Source: Candidatus Doudnabacteria bacterium RIFCSPHIGHO2_01_FULL_46_24
GTDB taxonomy: Bacteria > Patescibacteriota > Doudnabacteria > UBA920 > O2-02-FULL-48-8
Reading direction: 5' to 3'
Length of the DNA stretch: 33,165 bases
Assembly (NCBI GenBank): GCA_001777575.1
Contig: MFEL01000009.1
Location: 1-33,165, forward strand
A program made the position numbers and the translations under genes. Shown here in pieces: positions 26,388 to 33,165 of this stretch. Under the pieces are notes generated by a model. The model saw nothing but the letters and a program-made list of their open reading frames with translations. It had not been told where the DNA came from and ran no database searches. Numbering within the stretch: the stretch's first letter is position 1; each line of letters opens with the position of its first letter.

Positions 26388-26657
26388 ATGAATTACAAAC
26401 TTATCATCGGCGCGGTTGTATTGGCAGGTGTTATAGTCTTAGGGATTTGGTTTTGGACCGAATTGAATTATAACCGCGAGGAACTTTCCAATCTGCCCGT
26501 TTCAGCTCAGGACAATTCTCAAGCCCCTGTTTCTGATAATGAGGCAGCCCCGCAGCCTGTTTCCGGTCAGGAAAGCGCGGTAGAGTTAGAGGGCGAACTG
26601 AATGGACTGGACCTCTCCGGCCTAGACGCGGAAGAGTTTGACTTGTCGGGATTATGA
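26388..26657 (+). CDS. Single-TM acidic protein
   Basis: 89 residues. An N-terminal TM helix (LIIGAVVLAGVIVLGIWFW) precedes an extracytoplasmic acidic, Pro/Ser/Gln-rich tail ending in a LDLSGLDAEEFDLSGL repeat. It starts one base after the preceding stop. The preceding protein and this one resemble a secreted coiled coil with its anchored partner. A terminator follows. No family is recognised. Confidence 0.78.
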   Translation: MNYKLIIGAVVLAGVIVLGIWFWTELNYNREELSNLPVSAQDNSQAPVSDNEAAPQPVSGQESAVELEGELNGLDLSGLDAEEFDLSGL

Positions 26658-26692
26658 TTTGTTGATAGATTATAGTTAATAGTTGGTAGTTA

Positions 26693-26719
26693 AAAAAAGG
26701 CGGCGTAGGCCGCTTTTTA
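26693..26719 (+). terminator. Intrinsic terminator
   Basis: GCGGC-GTAG-GCCGC stem at 26700-26713, flanked by A7 and T5. Confidence 0.8.
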
Positions 26720-26759
26720 TTTTCCCCTTTTTCCTCCACATCCCTTACACCTCTTTTTT

Positions 26760-27005
26760 ATGTTTTCTCAAATTGATGAGCCAATTGACGTCATCGCGAA
26801 ATTTTCCAAAAATAAGCTTACGCCGGTTAAGTTTCTTTGGGGCGGCCGGGAATACTTGGTCCGTAAAATAAACCTGACTTGGAGCAGCTTCGAAGGCCGC
26901 AGCAAAATTTACTATTTTGCGGTATCGGATAACGTGAATTGTTTTAAGTTGAGATTTGATACTGAGTCGTTGAGGTGGACGCTACTTGAGAGTTATGTGG
27001 AATAG
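26760..27005 (+). CDS. DUF6504-like protein next to the Y-family polymerase
   Basis: 81 residues. PVKFLWGGREYLVRKINLTW, IYYFAVSDNVNCFKLRFD and RWTLLESYVE match the small beta-rich domain I know as DUF6504 (PxxFxWRGRxYxVxxI...W and YxLxxD...W.L...Y), which is often found next to or fused with Y-family polymerase-type genes. It precedes dinB by about 235 bp of repeats. A role in translesion synthesis is inferred from context only. Confidence 0.65.
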   Translation: MFSQIDEPIDVIAKFSKNKLTPVKFLWGGREYLVRKINLTWSSFEGRSKIYYFAVSDNVNCFKLRFDTESLRWTLLESYVE

Positions 27006-27010
27006 CCCCC

Positions 27011-27235
27011 GCCCATCCCCGAGGCGAGGGTTCTTCTCTCCCAGACCATCCCCGAGGCGAGGGTTCTTCTCTCCCAGACCATCCCCGAGGCGAGGGTTCT
27101 TCTCTCCCAGACCATCCCCGAGGCGAGGGTTCGGAGAGTAATCGGGGATCTTGTAGAAGCCTATACTAAGATCCCCGCTCAGCTTGGCAAAACTCTCAGC
27201 GGGGATGGGAGAAAGGCGGGGATGGGAATAGGACA
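27011..27235 (+). repeat. 33-bp tandem repeat x4 and palindromic element family B
   Basis: Four units of 33 bp (CCATCCCCGAGGCGAGGG + TTCTTCTCTCCCAGA), the last one running into CGGAGAGTAATCGGGGATCTT, followed by AGATCCCCGCTCAGC...CTCTCAGCGGGGATGGG. The first 142 bp (27011-27152) are identical to 30640-30781 inside the surface protein gene. Confidence 0.92.
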
Positions 27236-27240
27236 AAGTT

Positions 27241-28878
27241 ATGATACAAATTTTCCCAAGAATTTTGCTCATTGACATGAATTCTTTTTTTGCCAGCGTC
27301 GAACAGCAGGCGAACCCGTTTTTGCGCGGCAAGCCGGTGGGGGTATGTGCCTCGCTGCATCAAACCAGCTGCCTGATTGCCGCTTCCAAAGAAGCCAAGG
27401 CTTTAGGGATCAAAACCGGAACTTTGGTTTATCAGGCCAAAAAAATCTGCCCGAAAATTATTTTATTGCCCTCTGAGCCGGAGAAGTACCGCGAAGTCAA
27501 CCGCCGGATCGTGAAAATTTTCCGCGATTATACGGATCGGCTGGAGGTGTATAGCATTGATGAAGCGTTTTTGGAAATTGACGAATTACGAATTAACGGA
27601 TTACGGATTAGCAATTCGTTAATTCGCAATCCGAAATCCGCCAATCCCATAATAATTGGTGCTGAGATTAAGCAGAGAATCAAGCAAGAAGTCGGAGAGT
27701 GGCTGACCTGCTCCGTGGGGCTGGCGCCCAACAAATTCATGGCCAAGCTGGCCGCGGATATGCAGCCCGCCTCCGCGCAAGGCTACGGCGGGTCCGCCGA
27801 AGCTTTATGCGAAGGCGGAAAGCCGGACGGACTTTCTATTATTTGGAGCCGGGAACAACTTCGGGAAGTTTATCAGGGCAAGCAATTGCGGGATTTGTGG
27901 GGAATAAATAGGGGATGGGAAAGGCGATTGGCTAAGATCGGGATCACAAGCCCGCTGCAGCTTTTAGATTATCCCGCGCAGAATTTGATCAGCTTGTTTG
28001 GCAAGCCGGGATATTATTTGTGGCAGAGAGTGAATGGGTATGAGGTTGATAAAATAAATCCTTGCGGTTATACGTTTAACGGCAGCGCCGCGCGTATCGG
28101 TAAACGTTTGGCGTCAAGCGTTAAGACCATCCCGCACTTGATGCGAGATCTTACGCAAGATCCCCGATTACAATACCTAACTCTCACCTCGGGGATGGGG
28201 CAAGAGACGCATAACGCCGTCGAACAAACGATACGCGCTGCGCCGACGAATAACGATCCCCCTAAATCTTTTGGCCATTCCTGGGTCCTCAACTTTCGTA
28301 CCACTGACAAAGAGCGGCTTAAGCCGGTGATCCTGCGCTTGGCCGAGAAAGCCGCGCGGAGGATGCGCAAGGAGGGTTTTCAGGCTTACGGTTTTTATAT
28401 ATTTATCCGCATGGTGGATGGAAGTTTTATTGCCAAATCAAAAAAGCTGAAGTTTGCGATTAATACAGGGCTGGAGCTTTACGAACAGGCAATGTTGCTT
28501 TTGGATTCCGAACTATGCCACAGGCTATTGTCCACCATCCCCGCTGAGAATTCTTACAAGTTGAGCGGGGATCTTAGTAGAGGCTTTGGTAAGATCCCCG
28601 ATTATTTAGCTAACCCTCGCCTCGGGGATGGGAATGGATTTCCCGCCCCCGTCATGCATATCGCGGTGGGGTTTAGGGATTTAGTGAAGTATTCAGAACA
28701 GTTAGAACTCAATTTCGGATTAACGGATTACGGATTAAATCCGCAATCCGCAATCCGTAATAAATTAATAGATCAATTAGATGCCATTAATGACAAATAC
28801 GGGGAATTCACGGTTCGTTCAGGCTTACTCACGCGGACGTCCGATTTCGCCCCGGACGCGATAGCCTTCGGAAAGTAG
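27241..28878 (+). CDS. dinB: DNA polymerase IV (Y family) with five in-frame palindromic insertions
   Basis: 545 residues, against about 350-400 for the family. Translesion polymerase that copies past damaged bases. The catalytic palm is intact: ILLIDMNSFFASVEQ (first Asp), YSIDEAFLEID (Asp-Glu pair), CSVGLAPNKFMAKLAADMQ. The little-finger core is seen in NDPPKSFGHSW and beyond. Excess length comes from inserts that each fall in a family loop: about residues 115-138 (family D), 177-196 between LAADMQ and KPDGL (family A), 275-336 before NDPPKSFGHSW (family B within a larger stem), 432-468 (family B) and 493-511 (family D). All keep the frame. Whether the protein works is untested, but catalytic motifs lie outside the inserts. 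Confidence 0.92.
   Translation: MIQIFPRILLIDMNSFFASVEQQANPFLRGKPVGVCASLHQTSCLIAASKEAKALGIKTGTLVYQAKKICPKIILLPSEPEKYREVNRRIVKIFRDYTDRLEVYSIDEAFLEIDELRINGLRISNSLIRNPKSANPIIIGAEIKQRIKQEVGEWLTCSVGLAPNKFMAKLAADMQPASAQGYGGSAEALCEGGKPDGLSIIWSREQLREVYQGKQLRDLWGINRGWERRLAKIGITSPLQLLDYPAQNLISLFGKPGYYLWQRVNGYEVDKINPCGYTFNGSAARIGKRLASSVKTIPHLMRDLTQDPRLQYLTLTSGMGQETHNAVEQTIRAAPTNNDPPKSFGHSWVLNFRTTDKERLKPVILRLAEKAARRMRKEGFQAYGFYIFIRMVDGSFIAKSKKLKFAINTGLELYEQAMLLLDSELCHRLLSTIPAENSYKLSGDLSRGFGKIPDYLANPRLGDGNGFPAPVMHIAVGFRDLVKYSEQLELNFGLTDYGLNPQSAIRNKLIDQLDAINDKYGEFTVRSGLLTRTSDFAPDAIAFGK
27584..27656 (+). repeat. In-frame palindromic element family D in dinB
   Basis: GAATTACGAATTAACGG...CGTTAATTCGCAATCC inverted repeat encoding LRINGLRISNSLIRNPKSANP after the catalytic SIDEAF block. 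Confidence 0.8.
27768..27832 (+). repeat. In-frame palindromic element family A in dinB
   Basis: CCGCCTCCGCGCAAGGC..., GTCCGCCGAAGC and TGCGAAGGCGG units encode PASAQGYGGSAEALCEGG exactly between ADMQ and KPDGL, which are adjacent in ordinary DinB proteins. Confidence 0.85.
28063..28248 (+). repeat. In-frame composite palindrome with family B core in dinB
   Basis: Outer arms GCCGCGCGTATCG and CGATACGCGCTGC enclose a family B unit (CCATCCCGCACTTGATGCG, GATCCCCGATT...CCTCGGGGATGG). Encodes about 60 residues before NDPPKSF. Confidence 0.8.
28531..28645 (+). repeat. In-frame palindromic element family B in dinB
   Basis: CCATCCCCGCTGAGAATTC...GAGCGGGGATCTT, then AAGATCCCCGA...CCTCGCCTCGGGGATGG. 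Two nested inverted repeats encode a Pro/Asp/Gly-rich block. Confidence 0.85.
28718..28775 (+). repeat. In-frame palindromic element family D in dinB, copy 2
   Basis: ATTTCGGATTAACGGATTACGG...CCGCAATCCGTAATAAATTAAT-type inverted repeat encoding FGLTDYGLNPQSAIRNKL. Confidence 0.75.
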
Positions 28879-28892
28879 CAAAGCGAACGAGT

Positions 28893-28936
28893 GCCCATCC
28901 CCGAGATGAGTATCAGGACAAGAAATCGGGGATCTA
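28893..28936 (+). repeat. Palindromic element family B after dinB
   Basis: CCCATCCCCGAGATGAGT...AATCGGGGATCT, a short unit of the same family. Confidence 0.75.
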
Positions 28937-29010
28937 AAAATGAGCGCATAATTGAATATTGCCTTTCTTGCTGAGAAAGTGGGACTCAAGCAGAGAAGGC
29001 AAATCACATA

Positions 29011-29030
29011 AAGGCCAATTCGGCCTTTTT
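29011..29030 (+). terminator. Terminator after dinB
   Basis: AAGGCC-AATTC-GGCCTT followed by TTT. Another hairpin (TGCCTTTCTTGCTGA...CAGAGAAGGCA) lies just upstream. Confidence 0.75.
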
Positions 29031-29128
29031 GTAATTATGACTAGTTTACGCGAGCATACAGGGAATTTAGTATAGCGGGTAGGATATCCGGGAGTAGCTG
29101 GCTATTTTTTAAAAATTTCTGGCTGCCT

Positions 29129-29161
29129 GCCCCGCACCGAGACGAAGTCTCTGGTGCGGGG
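29129..29161 (+). repeat. Palindromic element family F
   Basis: GCCCCGCACC and GGTGCGGGG with an inner GAGAC/GTCTC stem. Also present in frame in endonuclease Q. Confidence 0.8.
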
Positions 29162-29190
29162 TTTCCGGAAGCCTGAAAGTCCAACTTCCA

Positions 29191-29219
29191 TTGACTGAAG
29201 GTGAATTTTTTGCTATAAT
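29191..29219 (+). promoter_or_regulatory. Strong promoter for a putative small RNA
   Basis: TTGACT (29191-29196), 17-bp spacer, TATAAT (29214-29219). Confidence 0.82.
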
Positions 29220-29225
29220 ATATAT

Positions 29226-29441
29226 ATACTGTATAGTTCCATTCTGATGAAATAAAAACATAACTTATTGTTTATTCCCGGCCTGGGGCACAATCATTAG
29301 GCTTAACCACCGAAGATTTGTTCTGGACTGTAGAATATAAGGCTTAGGACTCCCGCTTTAGCTGCCAAAATAGCGGCTTTAAAGCTTTCGAGTTCTTGGC
29401 CAGAAATTAAAGCAAAAACCGGGTTCTCTCGCCCGGTTTTT
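29226..29441 (+). ncRNA. Putative ~216-nt small RNA
   Basis: Bounded by the promoter above and a clean terminator (AAAAACCGGG-TTCTCTCG-CCCGGTTTTTG at 29414-29441). It has no open frame of note: the first ATG reads only MK before a stop. Internal stems include CCGCT...AGCGG and TCTGG...CCAGA. No conserved words of 6S, RNase P, SRP RNA or tmRNA were recognised, so the class is unknown. Confidence 0.6.
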
Positions 29442-29522
29442 GTTTTAGTGGCTCTGTGAAACATTTTGGGGTACTTTTTGTTGTGCAAAATGCACAATAA
29501 AAATCAAAAACATTGCGGTTTC

Positions 29523-29760
29523 TCAAAATCTCGGATAGCCGAGACCTGACGCATGTAGATATTCGGCTCGTTCGAATGCTTGGACTGATATTATCCCAAG
29601 CCTCACCCTCGTGAGGATATTCGGCTTATCCGGATCCTTTGACTGATATTGGTTCACTCCTTTCATATCTGTCCGAGGATCACCCATAGCCGAATATCGC
29701 GCCGTTTGCGGCGCAAATATCTCTCTACGAATTTGGCAAAGCCAATATCTATTAAACGTT
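29523..29760. repeat. Intergenic stretch of GATATTCGGCT-type repeats
   Basis: No gene is visible. Related words recur in both orientations: GATATTCGGCT at about 29558 and 29617, AGCCGAATATC near 29688, CTCGGATAGCCGAG near 29530, GCGCCGTTTGCGGCGC near 29700, and two TTGACTGATATT-like direct copies (29574 and 29637). Probably an array of palindromic elements. Confidence 0.5.
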
Positions 29761-29792
29761 AGGCTGTGAAGGTTTTTGATAGGCAAACCCCC

Positions 29793-29821
29793 TTGACTAT
29801 TGCCAATGATAACGCTATAAT
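29793..29821 (+). promoter_or_regulatory. Promoter of the surface protein gene
   Basis: TTGACT (29793-29798), 17-bp spacer, TATAAT (29816-29821). Predicted start near 29828 gives a leader of about 180 nt before the TTG at 30010. Confidence 0.82.
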
Positions 29822-29888
29822 AATGGCGATATCGGACATCCGAGACTATCCGAGATTCTGTTGAAACCGAAGCAAAACAACAACTAAA

Positions 29889-29997
29889 CCCCGTTAGAAA
29901 TTCAACTAAGGCTATTTGGTTGTTGGGTTTAGAAACTAATATTAAAACGCAAATTAACATCACCGTTGGATTAAACTTATTTCTAACGGGGTAAAAT
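29889..29997 (+). promoter_or_regulatory. Leader element CCGTTAGAA...TTCTAACGG, copy 2
   Basis: CCCCGTTAGAAAT and ATTTCTAACGGGG form a 13-bp closing helix around about 80 nt. The 3' block TTTCTAACGGGGTAAA is identical to that of the 4481-4545 element and ends about 15 bases before the start codon. Confidence 0.6.
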
Positions 29998-30009
29998 CGA
30001 GAGAAAAAC

Positions 30010-33000
30010 TTGGACGACAAAGACTCGTCAAAATTAGGATCCGAGAGTAACCCTAATTTGGAAAATAGTGGCGTTTTTAACTCGTCTGCCGAAGCCTGGC
30101 AGGCGAAGGCAGATGACGCTGCTTTTTTGTCCCTGGCCCAGGCCTCGGTCCTTACCGGTTACCACCAGGACTATCTGGGCTTCCTGGCCCGCGCGGGCAA
30201 GCTTGAGGCGCACAAAATCGGGCGCAATTGGGTGACGACCAAGGCGGCTATTGAGAAATTGGTTGCCACGGGTAATGGCAAAACCGAGGTCATGGACGAA
30301 ACTGGCCGTAAAATTCCGGTGCACGTGGTCAGGGGAGAGCCGCAAGAGGCAGGGCAGAATGTCCAGGAGGAAATCATCCAGTACACTACTCCCTGGAACA
30401 ATAAGCTTTTGGATTCGCAGTCTGTTGACATGCTTTCCCATGAGAAGAAGAATACTCTGAGCCTGCTGAACCGGTTTTGGAAAAAAAGCGTTAGGGTTCT
30501 TCCCCCAACCCCCCCAACCTCCCTTACATCTCTGACTTCCTTCGAGGGATCAGAGCAACTCAAAAAAGAGCTTCTCGAAAAATTTGACCAGCTGGACTCC
30601 AAGCTGGAAAAGCTTACAAGCAACCACGCCGTTTCCTCGGCCCATCCCCGAGGCGAGGGTTCTTCTCTCCCAGACCATCCCCGAGGCGAGGGTTCTTCTC
30701 TCCCAGACCATCCCCGAGGCGAGGGTTCTTCTCTCCCAGACCATCCCCGAGGCGAGGGTTCGGAGAGTAATCGGGGATCTTACCAGAGCCTTAACCAGGA
30801 TCCCCTCGCCTCGCTCGACGCGAGTCGAAGCGGGCGCTCAACTCAGGGAATTCTCAGCGGGGATGGGACAAAAGCGGGGGAGTTGTCTGGTCAGGCAATA
30901 GAAAAACTCGAATCCAAGCTTGCGGATTTGGATACCAAAGTTTCCACTATTGCTAGCCAGCAACCAAAAGCTCCCACAGAGGCACAACTTAACCGGAAAC
31001 TTTCCGACTACGAGCCGGAAATTTTGGGCCTGCTCAACGCCAAGGAAATTACCTCTCATCTCAAGCAAGCCTCATCTTCTTCGGCGATCCGAGCGTTTTC
31101 TCCCTCAGCGGCGGCCATCATGATTTTGGCCTTTGGCGTTGCCGCGGCCGGGGGATTGATTTACACGACCTCCAGCCAGCTTTCGGAAATCGGAAGCAGC
31201 CTTTCCTCGCCTCAGTATTTGGTGTTGAACCGCACGGCGTATGCGCCATTAAGTGACCTGGTCCCAGTTTCCCTAACACCCTCCACCTCCCTTACCTCCC
31301 CAACTTCCCTGACTGGCCCGAGGGGCTTAGCCGGCCCCAGGGGAGAAAAAGGCGACAAAGGGGATCCCGGCCTGCCAGGCCCGACTGGCCCTGCAGGTCC
31401 CGTTGGCCCTTCCGGGCTCGCGGGCGGGGGCAGTAGTATCACCAATGTCACGTATGTCATGCCCACGGCCAACAACGGCGGGGGCGGCAGCATTGCGGGC
31501 GCCACTTACCTTTCTTCTAAAGAGCTGTCCACGGAAAAACTTTTTGTCACATCTGACTTGCAAAGCAGCGGCACAGCCACGATTGCCGCGGCCACCATCA
31601 CCGGCAACCAGACTTTAGGCGGTGATTTGACAGTTAACGGCAATACCACCATCGGCAGCAATGCTTCCGATACCATCACCTTTACCGGAAGAGTGGCTTC
31701 CTCCATCCTCCCAGCCACCGATGACACCTATGATTTAGGCTCTACTGCCTTAAGGTTCCGCGACCTCTACATCGGCCCGGGAAGCATCAACGTCATTTGC
31801 GACTCTTCCGAGTGTTCCTCAGCCACGACTTACAAGCTCTCGGTAGACCCTGCCACCAACAACCTGCGCATCTGGGACGGGACCACGACCTTCTTTACCC
31901 TGGACACTACTGGCGATACCATAGCCCGGGGCCAGCTGCAAGCCACAGAAGTCCCCGCCACGGCCCACGTCTTTACCACCTGGCCCACAGGAACCTCCGG
32001 TGTTTCTTCCTCCACCCTTTACATCAACCCCGCCTCTGCCGCGGCTGACACCAACCTCATCGGCGCTGCTGTCAATGGCTCAGTCAAGTTCCTGGTGGAT
32101 GCCGAAGGGGATGTCTATGCCAACAACTTAATCCTTTCCGGCTCCGCCACCACCGGCGCCACGACCATAGCAGGGAACTTAACTGTCCAGGACAATGTCA
32201 CCCTGGGGGATGCTTCTTCTGACACCATCACTTTCACCGGCACCATACTCGGAGCTTCGCCTCTGGTCTTTGAAGGAGGAACAGCCAATGACTTTGAGAC
32301 GACCTTCACTATCACTGACCCCACCACAGACAAAACCATTACTTTCCCCAACACCACCGGCACTGTAACTTTGACGACTAACGATCTATCAGTCTTCTCT
32401 GCCACCACTTCGGCCCAGTTAGCCGGAGTCTTAAGCGATGAAACCGGATCAGGCTTGGCAGTCTTCTCCACCAGCCCGACCCTGGTAACCCCAACCCTCG
32501 GCGTAGCCACTGCCACCAGTATTAACAAAGTTGCTCTCACCGCTCCAGCCACTTCCGCCACCTTGACTATTGCCGACGGCAAGACACTGACCGTTTCTGA
32601 CTCCACCACGCTTGGAACCAACGCCATCACCTTAGCCGGCGGGGAAGTCATCACTTTCTCGGCCACCAACGCCTTATCACTTCTGACCACTGGCTCAACC
32701 TCTGTCACCCTGCCAACTTCCGGCACTCTCTATGGCACAGCCACGGATTCCATCACCTCGCTTCAGCTTCTGACTTCCCTGTCCAATGAAACCGGCACCG
32801 GCGCCCTGGTGTTTGCCGCTTCACCAACTTTGGTTACACCTGCACTTGGCACTCCAAGCTCGGGAGTGCTAACCAATGCCACTGGTCTTCCACTCACCAC
32901 CGGCGTAACCGGCGTCCTGCCTGTGGCCAACGGCGGCACGAATTGTTCAAGCGCCAGCATTACTTGCTTTAACAACATCACGGGCTTTACCGCGGCGGGC

Positions 33001-33165
33001 ACCACCGGCACAACATCTACTAATTTAGTTTTCTCCACTTCGCCTACCTTTATTACCCCAGTCCTGGGCGCCGCCACTGGCACCTCTCTCGCCACCTCAG
33101 CCCAGAACATCTTTACCCACACGGCCGGCTCTGTGCCACTCATTCTGCGTTCTGCCACAGCCACG
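30010..33165 (+). CDS. Giant surface protein: HTH, TM, collagen-like and tail-fibre repeats (partial, 3' end outside window)
   Basis: 1052 residues are visible and the frame is still open at the window end. Start TTG 30010 follows a stop at 29992 with GAGAG upstream. Order: MerR/excisionase-like HTH (residues about 38-82, [17 protein letters not shown]...[15 protein letters not shown]); helical region; Pro/Thr stretch; palindrome-encoded [11 protein letters not shown] repeats (about 212-257); coiled parts; one TM helix (about 366-385, [19 protein letters not shown]); collagen-like Gly-X-Y ([17 protein letters not shown], about 436-470); then Thr/Ala/Ser-rich repeats with [13 protein letters not shown] and [19 protein letters not shown]...[10 protein letters not shown], a motif of phage tail fibres and bacterial adhesins. 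Inference: cytoplasmic HTH, outward-facing adhesive stalk. Confidence 0.9.
30085..30117 (+). repeat. In-frame palindromic element family A in the surface protein gene
   Basis: TCTGCCGAAGCCTGGCAGGC followed by GAAGGCAGATG: an inverted repeat encoding [11 protein letters not shown] just before the HTH domain. Confidence 0.65.
30640..30865 (+). repeat. In-frame tandem repeat and family B element in the surface protein gene
   Basis: The first 142 bp (30640-30781) are identical to 27011-27152: four 33-bp units, each 11 codons, read as [11 protein letters not shown]. The element ends with CTCAGCGGGGATGGG near 30862. A further TCGACGCGAGTCGA palindrome lies at about 30817-30830. Confidence 0.92.

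Follow-up and report, generated by a model that had tools for sequence, protein, structure and literature searches.

The dinB-like gene of Candidatus Doudnabacteria bacterium RIFCSPHIGHO2_01_FULL_46_24 encodes a polymerase longer than its relatives, which raises the question of what the additional residues are and how they came to be read in frame. The gene lies in a 33,165-nt stretch of contig MFEL01000009.1 (assembly GCA_001777575.1), which was analysed as a whole and is referred to here as the window; the genome carrying it is designated G000 and its relatives G001-G003. An initial annotation of the window had proposed that dinB carries five in-frame palindromic insertions, and both the number of blocks and their palindromic nature were upheld by the analysis below.

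Extra blocks in a Y-family polymerase

The dinB ORF encodes a protein of 545 aa that matches Pfam IMS (4e-43) and IMS_C (1.7e-12). In a 39-sequence alignment, D12, S105, D107, and E108 are invariant, the catalytic acids D12, D107, and E108 among them, and the top Foldseek matches to the model are the Y-family structures Dpo4, DinB, and Pol kappa. With the IMS fold and the catalytic acidic residues present, the protein is a member of the Y family. DinB relatives of the same family (L004-L011) measure 397-462 aa, and the excess in the window protein, measured against the shortest of these, is ~140 aa; the protein is indeed longer than its family, but by less than the ~150 residues first estimated. 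The alignment places additional residues in five blocks (aa ~115-135, 176-193, 278-340, 425-465, and 485-502), with gaps opposite in most relatives. AlphaFold, run with a 39-sequence alignment, returned pLDDT values <50 at 118-132 (with single-residue breaks), 181-193, 276-338, 443-462, and 487-500, i.e., exactly at the five blocks, and at the last four residues, while most of the core was above 90. The initial placement of the blocks in loops is supported. The low pLDDT fits disordered loops; it could also reflect inserts without homologues.

Searches with nhmmer and covariance models assigned the blocks to four palindromic repeat families, here called A-D (blocks 1 and 5, A; block 2, B; block 3, D with a nested C; block 4, C; Table 1). 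Since block 3 combines a D copy with a C copy inserted inside it, the five blocks hold six copies (two of A, one of B, two of C, and one of D), and the "at least three" families of the initial annotation become four. Each block had been said to coincide with an inverted repeat, and blocks 1-5 do fold as hairpins, with z-scores of -3.9, -2.2, -3.7, -3.8, and -5.6, respectively; of the six copies, the nested C copy of block 3 is the only one without a hairpin fold. The family B insert falls exactly between ADMQ and KPDGL, as first read, and other palindromes occupy this site in relatives L006 and L007. Insert 1 is missing in relatives L005 and L008-L011, the D palindrome of insert 3 has its inverted repeat at 28073-28099 and 28229-28255, and insert 4 is read in the register shared with a family C copy in atpG.

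The loop following SIDExxL differs in length among the aligned DinB relatives, which would suit the idea that the blocks are ordinary conserved DinB segments. Yet most close relatives lack the blocks, and the blocks match dispersed repeats, with the same pattern recurring in the genomes of several relatives and in unrelated genes; we give this idea, and that of an assembly artefact, next to no chance.

The window contains the same tandem 33-bp array of C arms, beside a full C copy, in two places: one is intergenic (27007-27110), the other in frame within ORF 30010-33165 (30641-30740).

Table 1. Coordinates of dinB, its inserts, and neighbouring repeats in the window
Feature	Position	Strand	Evidence
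dinB-like Y-family polymerase ORF, 545 aa	27241..28878	+	Pfam IMS/IMS_C, invariant residues, Foldseek
Insert 1, family A palindrome (ATTACGGATT type), reads DELRINGLRISNSLIRNPK, loop after SIDEAFLEI	27581..27635	+	R3, 68.9 bits
Insert 2, family B double hairpin (TCCGCCGAAGC..GCGAAGGCGGA), reads PASAQGYGGSAEALCEGG, between ADMQ and KPDGL	27766..27821	+	nhmmer, 57.1 bits
Insert 3, D palindrome, left half, linker before little-finger domain	28070..28126	+	nhmmer, 44.0 bits
Family C copy, partly degenerate, nested within D	28124..28201	+	R1, 54.4 bits
D palindrome, right half	28204..28256	+	nhmmer, 30.7 bits
Insert 4, full-length family C, reads STIPAENSYKLSGDLSRGFGKIPDYLANPRLGDGN	28532..28634	+	R1, 99.4 bits
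Insert 5, family A palindrome, reads NFGLTDYGLNPQSAIRN	28708..28767	+	R3, 66.4 bits
Intergenic tandem 33-bp units (family C hairpin arm), then full C copy, directly upstream of dinB	27007..27211	.	R1, 102.6 bits
Intergenic half copy of family C, directly downstream of dinB	28892..28940	.	nhmmer, 26.5 bits
Second tandem 33-bp array and C copy, within ORF 30010-33165, read as 11-residue repeats	30641..30869	+	repeat searches

Four repeat families and their host genes

The genome was surveyed by whole-genome model searches and through stretches fetched by position. Family A measures ~55-60 nt, B is a hairpin of 27 nt that frequently occurs as a ~57-nt doublet, C (~103 nt) is built of two inverted ~42-nt hairpins, and D measures ~110 nt. 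Dispersed copies were found at 33 places for C, ~19 for D, 16 for A, and at least 16 for B (~84 in total), the counts for B and C varying with the threshold; five of the B copies came from the sampled stretches. Families A-D are palindromic families dispersed through one genome. Approximately 35% of the copies are intragenic while coding sequence makes up ~78% of the sampled sequence, a deficit that is consistent with the removal of harmful insertions.

This dispersal bears on whether the palindromes might instead have formed on site, through hairpin-templated or template-switch copying within tolerant loops, without being mobile at all. Perfect palindromes in the DinB loops of L007, L018, and L020, taken from those loops alone, could have such an origin. 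However, each of families A-D is dispersed in many copies, intergenic ones included, and families C and D recur in other genera, which makes an in-place origin of the blocks very improbable.

The same families reach well beyond dinB and into many essential genes: at least 26 copies stand in frame within 17 genes, flanked on either side by coding-like sequence (29 copies in 19 genes if weak C matches are counted). Besides dinB, the hosts include atpG, uvrB, recJ, recF, pcrA, ksgA, tgt, mnmA, trpS, and secA. Pfam names ATP synthase gamma, RecJ, UvrD/PcrA, KsgA, UvrB, MnmA, TGT, a class I tRNA synthetase (TrpRS), and SecA among them, RecF was identified by an SMC_N match together with its sequence, and some hypothetical host ORFs, called by hexamer score alone, are less certain genes. 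When UvrB was compared with the PDB (E 4e-267), only query residues 240-283 remained unmatched, a break that falls at the insert; the PDB alignments of AtpG and KsgA are likewise interrupted at their inserts. The AtpG insert, a family C copy of 36 residues, is present in 0/12 aligned relatives. The UvrB loop holds D in G000 and a different palindrome in G001, and is short in the other relatives shown; the G001 loop (L240) is filled by a palindromic pair rich in CCCCC/GGGGG.

Repair and replication genes make up 5/17 of the hosts (dinB, uvrB, recF, recJ, and pcrA), a plain count rather than an enrichment statistic. It is conceivable, if rather unlikely, that DNA repair and replication proteins of Patescibacteria retain the repeats preferentially, as has been reported for Proteobacteria, with repair proteins or their loci having a mechanistic link to the spread of the repeats or the loops altering repair, and with the loops refilled by different families in different genera.

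A second pile-up besides that of dinB occurs in one ORF for a probable secreted or surface protein (L057:2-859), where C, D, B, and an A-like fragment stand in frame, and a C element also lies in frame in a reverse-transcriptase-like ORF (L060:1044-2207; GLPLGNLTSQ and YADD motifs recognized by eye). The C element of tgt (L035:9627-9732) holds a further hairpin, read LPAGQSFGVGG and found as well in ORF L058:1072-2049, which is probably another nested insertion. Three D copies are squeezed between neighbouring genes, whose names were read from sequence, at L067 1501-1615 (atpD-atpC), L078 1501-1615 (upstream of scpB), and L121 1501-1596 (def-fmt); a few bases separate these copies from the start codon that follows, and they can provide an upstream stop codon.

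Frame keeping and insertion history

The initial annotation had stressed that unrelated families in dinB all keep the frame, and the frame is kept by 21/21 copies of the repeats that have open, coding-like flanks on both sides within one gene. Two D copies that appeared to break the frame are both intergenic, one beside scpB as read and the other between def and fmt. Stop-free frames in non-coding copies, compared with dinucleotide shuffles, were 0.92 vs. 2.01 for A, 3.80 vs. 3.62 for B, 1.75 vs. 1.83 for C, and 0.54 vs. 1.09 for D; thus, non-coding copies showed no excess of open frames against either dinucleotide or palindrome-preserving shuffles, and A and D had fewer. Given this lack of enrichment, frame keeping is what selection on survivors leaves, and such selection is sufficient to explain the frame pattern.

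These values also speak against the suggestion that the elements are designed to be readable, i.e., that they are mobile elements selected for a coding peptide, so that insertion into a gene is harmless or useful. On its side, the entry register of D is identical in 6/6 genes (exit registers differ) and single B hairpins are read in one register in 5/5, as would be expected if the peptides mattered; the coding copies are open as well, though by construction. For D, however, the single entry register arises because the other registers contain stops, both of them in the consensus, and for families C and A several registers are in use. We consider selection for readability improbable.

The strong hairpins in the blocks, and the highly conserved enzymes that host them, might also suggest blocks that are excised from the transcript or passed over in translation, like introns or bypass elements. 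Under skipping, there would be no need for all 21 testable copies to keep the frame and lack stops, as they do, and an Rfam scan of 26500-31500 returned nothing above gathering score and one chance match below it; we find removal or skipping highly implausible.

The best reading, in our view, would be that REP/MITE-like repeats are tolerated as disordered loops. At a probability of about 0.86, the extra blocks are non-autonomous palindromic repeats that landed in genes and were kept as in-frame loop insertions by selection on survivors. Short, non-autonomous palindromic repeats of four or more families would spread through the Doudnabacteria genome and sometimes into genes, where a copy would survive under three conditions only: a net length divisible by three, a stop-free register, and a position in a surface loop. 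The surviving insert would then presumably be translated as a disordered loop, presumably with no evident function. An occupied loop would be a safe site for later insertions and, therefore, inserts would nest and pile up, as with C in D in dinB. A counterpoint is that ~140 added residues are a large load on one polymerase for a neutral insert.

Comparison among relatives offers some insight into the order of events. The DinB linker of G002 (L004) holds a whole D (63.1 bits), which aligns to both halves of the window D, and no C. Since G002 carries D alone, the C in the window D is a separate event, and the difference would be either a gain in the lineage of the window or a loss in G002. The DinB gene of G003 (L006) carries family A at the block-5 site (51.5 bits) and another A in the linker. 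Between its block-5 element and that of the window, ~3 of 57 bases differ, and divergence is far greater in the flanks; this suggests that the site was hit independently and recently, or that sequence was exchanged, and speaks less for slow vertical descent. Different palindromes, some of them perfect, fill the same DinB loops in relatives of the same order (L006, L007, L009, L010, L013, L018-L020, and L022). Judged from sequence, the same DinB and UvrB loops appear to be reused by different repeat families in different genera. A gap-free stem test on the insert blocks of relatives' DinB, which trims block edges and misses interrupted stems and is supportive only, gave p<=0.05 for 12/29 and p<=0.01 for 7/29. 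The repeated recent insertion proposed at the outset is thus supported for some copies, namely D with and without C and the atpG C copy of G000. Target-site duplications were not consistently found in the flanks of C and D, nor at the atpG site; inverted repeats are present. Because neither a target-site duplication nor a clean element-to-empty-site boundary was established, movement is inferred from dispersal together with presence and absence.

Relation to known palindromic repeats

To our knowledge, in-frame palindromic elements have so far been described mainly from Rickettsia and some Proteobacteria, and a literature search of open-licence PMC papers found no earlier report of such repeats in Patescibacteria. 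What is apparently new here is the Patescibacteria lineage, the four-family pile-up with nesting in one gene, and the reuse of loops across genera. The hosts include strongly conserved enzymes, e.g., ATP synthase gamma and UvrB, and the old question of whether inserts of this kind merely survive because they do no harm or supply proteins with new segments is now testable by many-genome comparison. There is also a warning in these results, as unusual additional loops in proteins of Patescibacteria may stem from repeats instead of representing functional domains.

In REPIN/RAYT systems, REP doublets are moved by Y1 transposases, and families C and D resemble REPINs in being inverted doublets of ~100 nt. 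Two Y1_Tnp (RAYT-like) proteins are encoded in G000, and no PF01797 (Y1_Tnp) match was found in G002 or G003, of which G002 still has many C and D copies. At the two Y1_Tnp loci, L001 shows only weak C matches, and in L002 the one strong repeat is a B copy lying ~1.2 kb away from the Y1 match. A RAYT was rejected as the dedicated transposase since the repeats do not follow its distribution; a transposase that has been lost or has diverged is conceivable.

The intragenic REPs tagged by GTAG or CGTC are short hairpins, commonly dimers, which are mostly intergenic with some copies in frame (Di Nocera et al., 2013; PMC3733652). Intragenic copies are frequent in replication and repair genes (uvrA, uvrB, uvrD, and recB), some genes are hit twice, and recB is hit near the same site in two Xanthomonas species (PMC3733652). 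Short hairpins, dimers, a largely intergenic location with some in-frame copies, and repair genes among the hosts are likewise features of the repeats described here. GTAG was found near copy ends in 1/16 A, 1/16 B, 1/33 C, and 3/19 D, and CGTC in 1/16 A, 4/16 B, 5/33 C, and 4/19 D; with tags this rare, A-D do not belong to the GTAG/CGTC superfamily by terminal tag. The REP unit, a palindrome of 20-40 bp occurring singly or as an inverted dimer, is matched by B (27 nt, with ~57-nt doublets) and by the 42-nt units of C while A and D are longer, and whole C and D elements exceed it. The four-family pile-up with nesting in dinB is also more extreme than the double insertions of PMC3733652.

The initial annotation had likened the inserts to Rickettsia palindromic elements (RPEs; Ogata et al., 2000, 2002), and this likeness holds in kind, with dispersed families standing in frame in 17 genes. 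As reviewed in PMC10969869, RPEs are dispersed, lie in frame in many unrelated genes, and form several families in a small genome; they measure ~150 bp, with ten families reported. On dispersal and in-frame presence in unrelated genes, A-D would accordingly appear RPE-like, the two being alike in kind as dispersed palindromes in frame in many unrelated genes with several families per small genome. Unlike RPEs, the repeats of this genome measure 27-115 nt, belong to four families, nest within one another, and place six copies from four families in a single gene.
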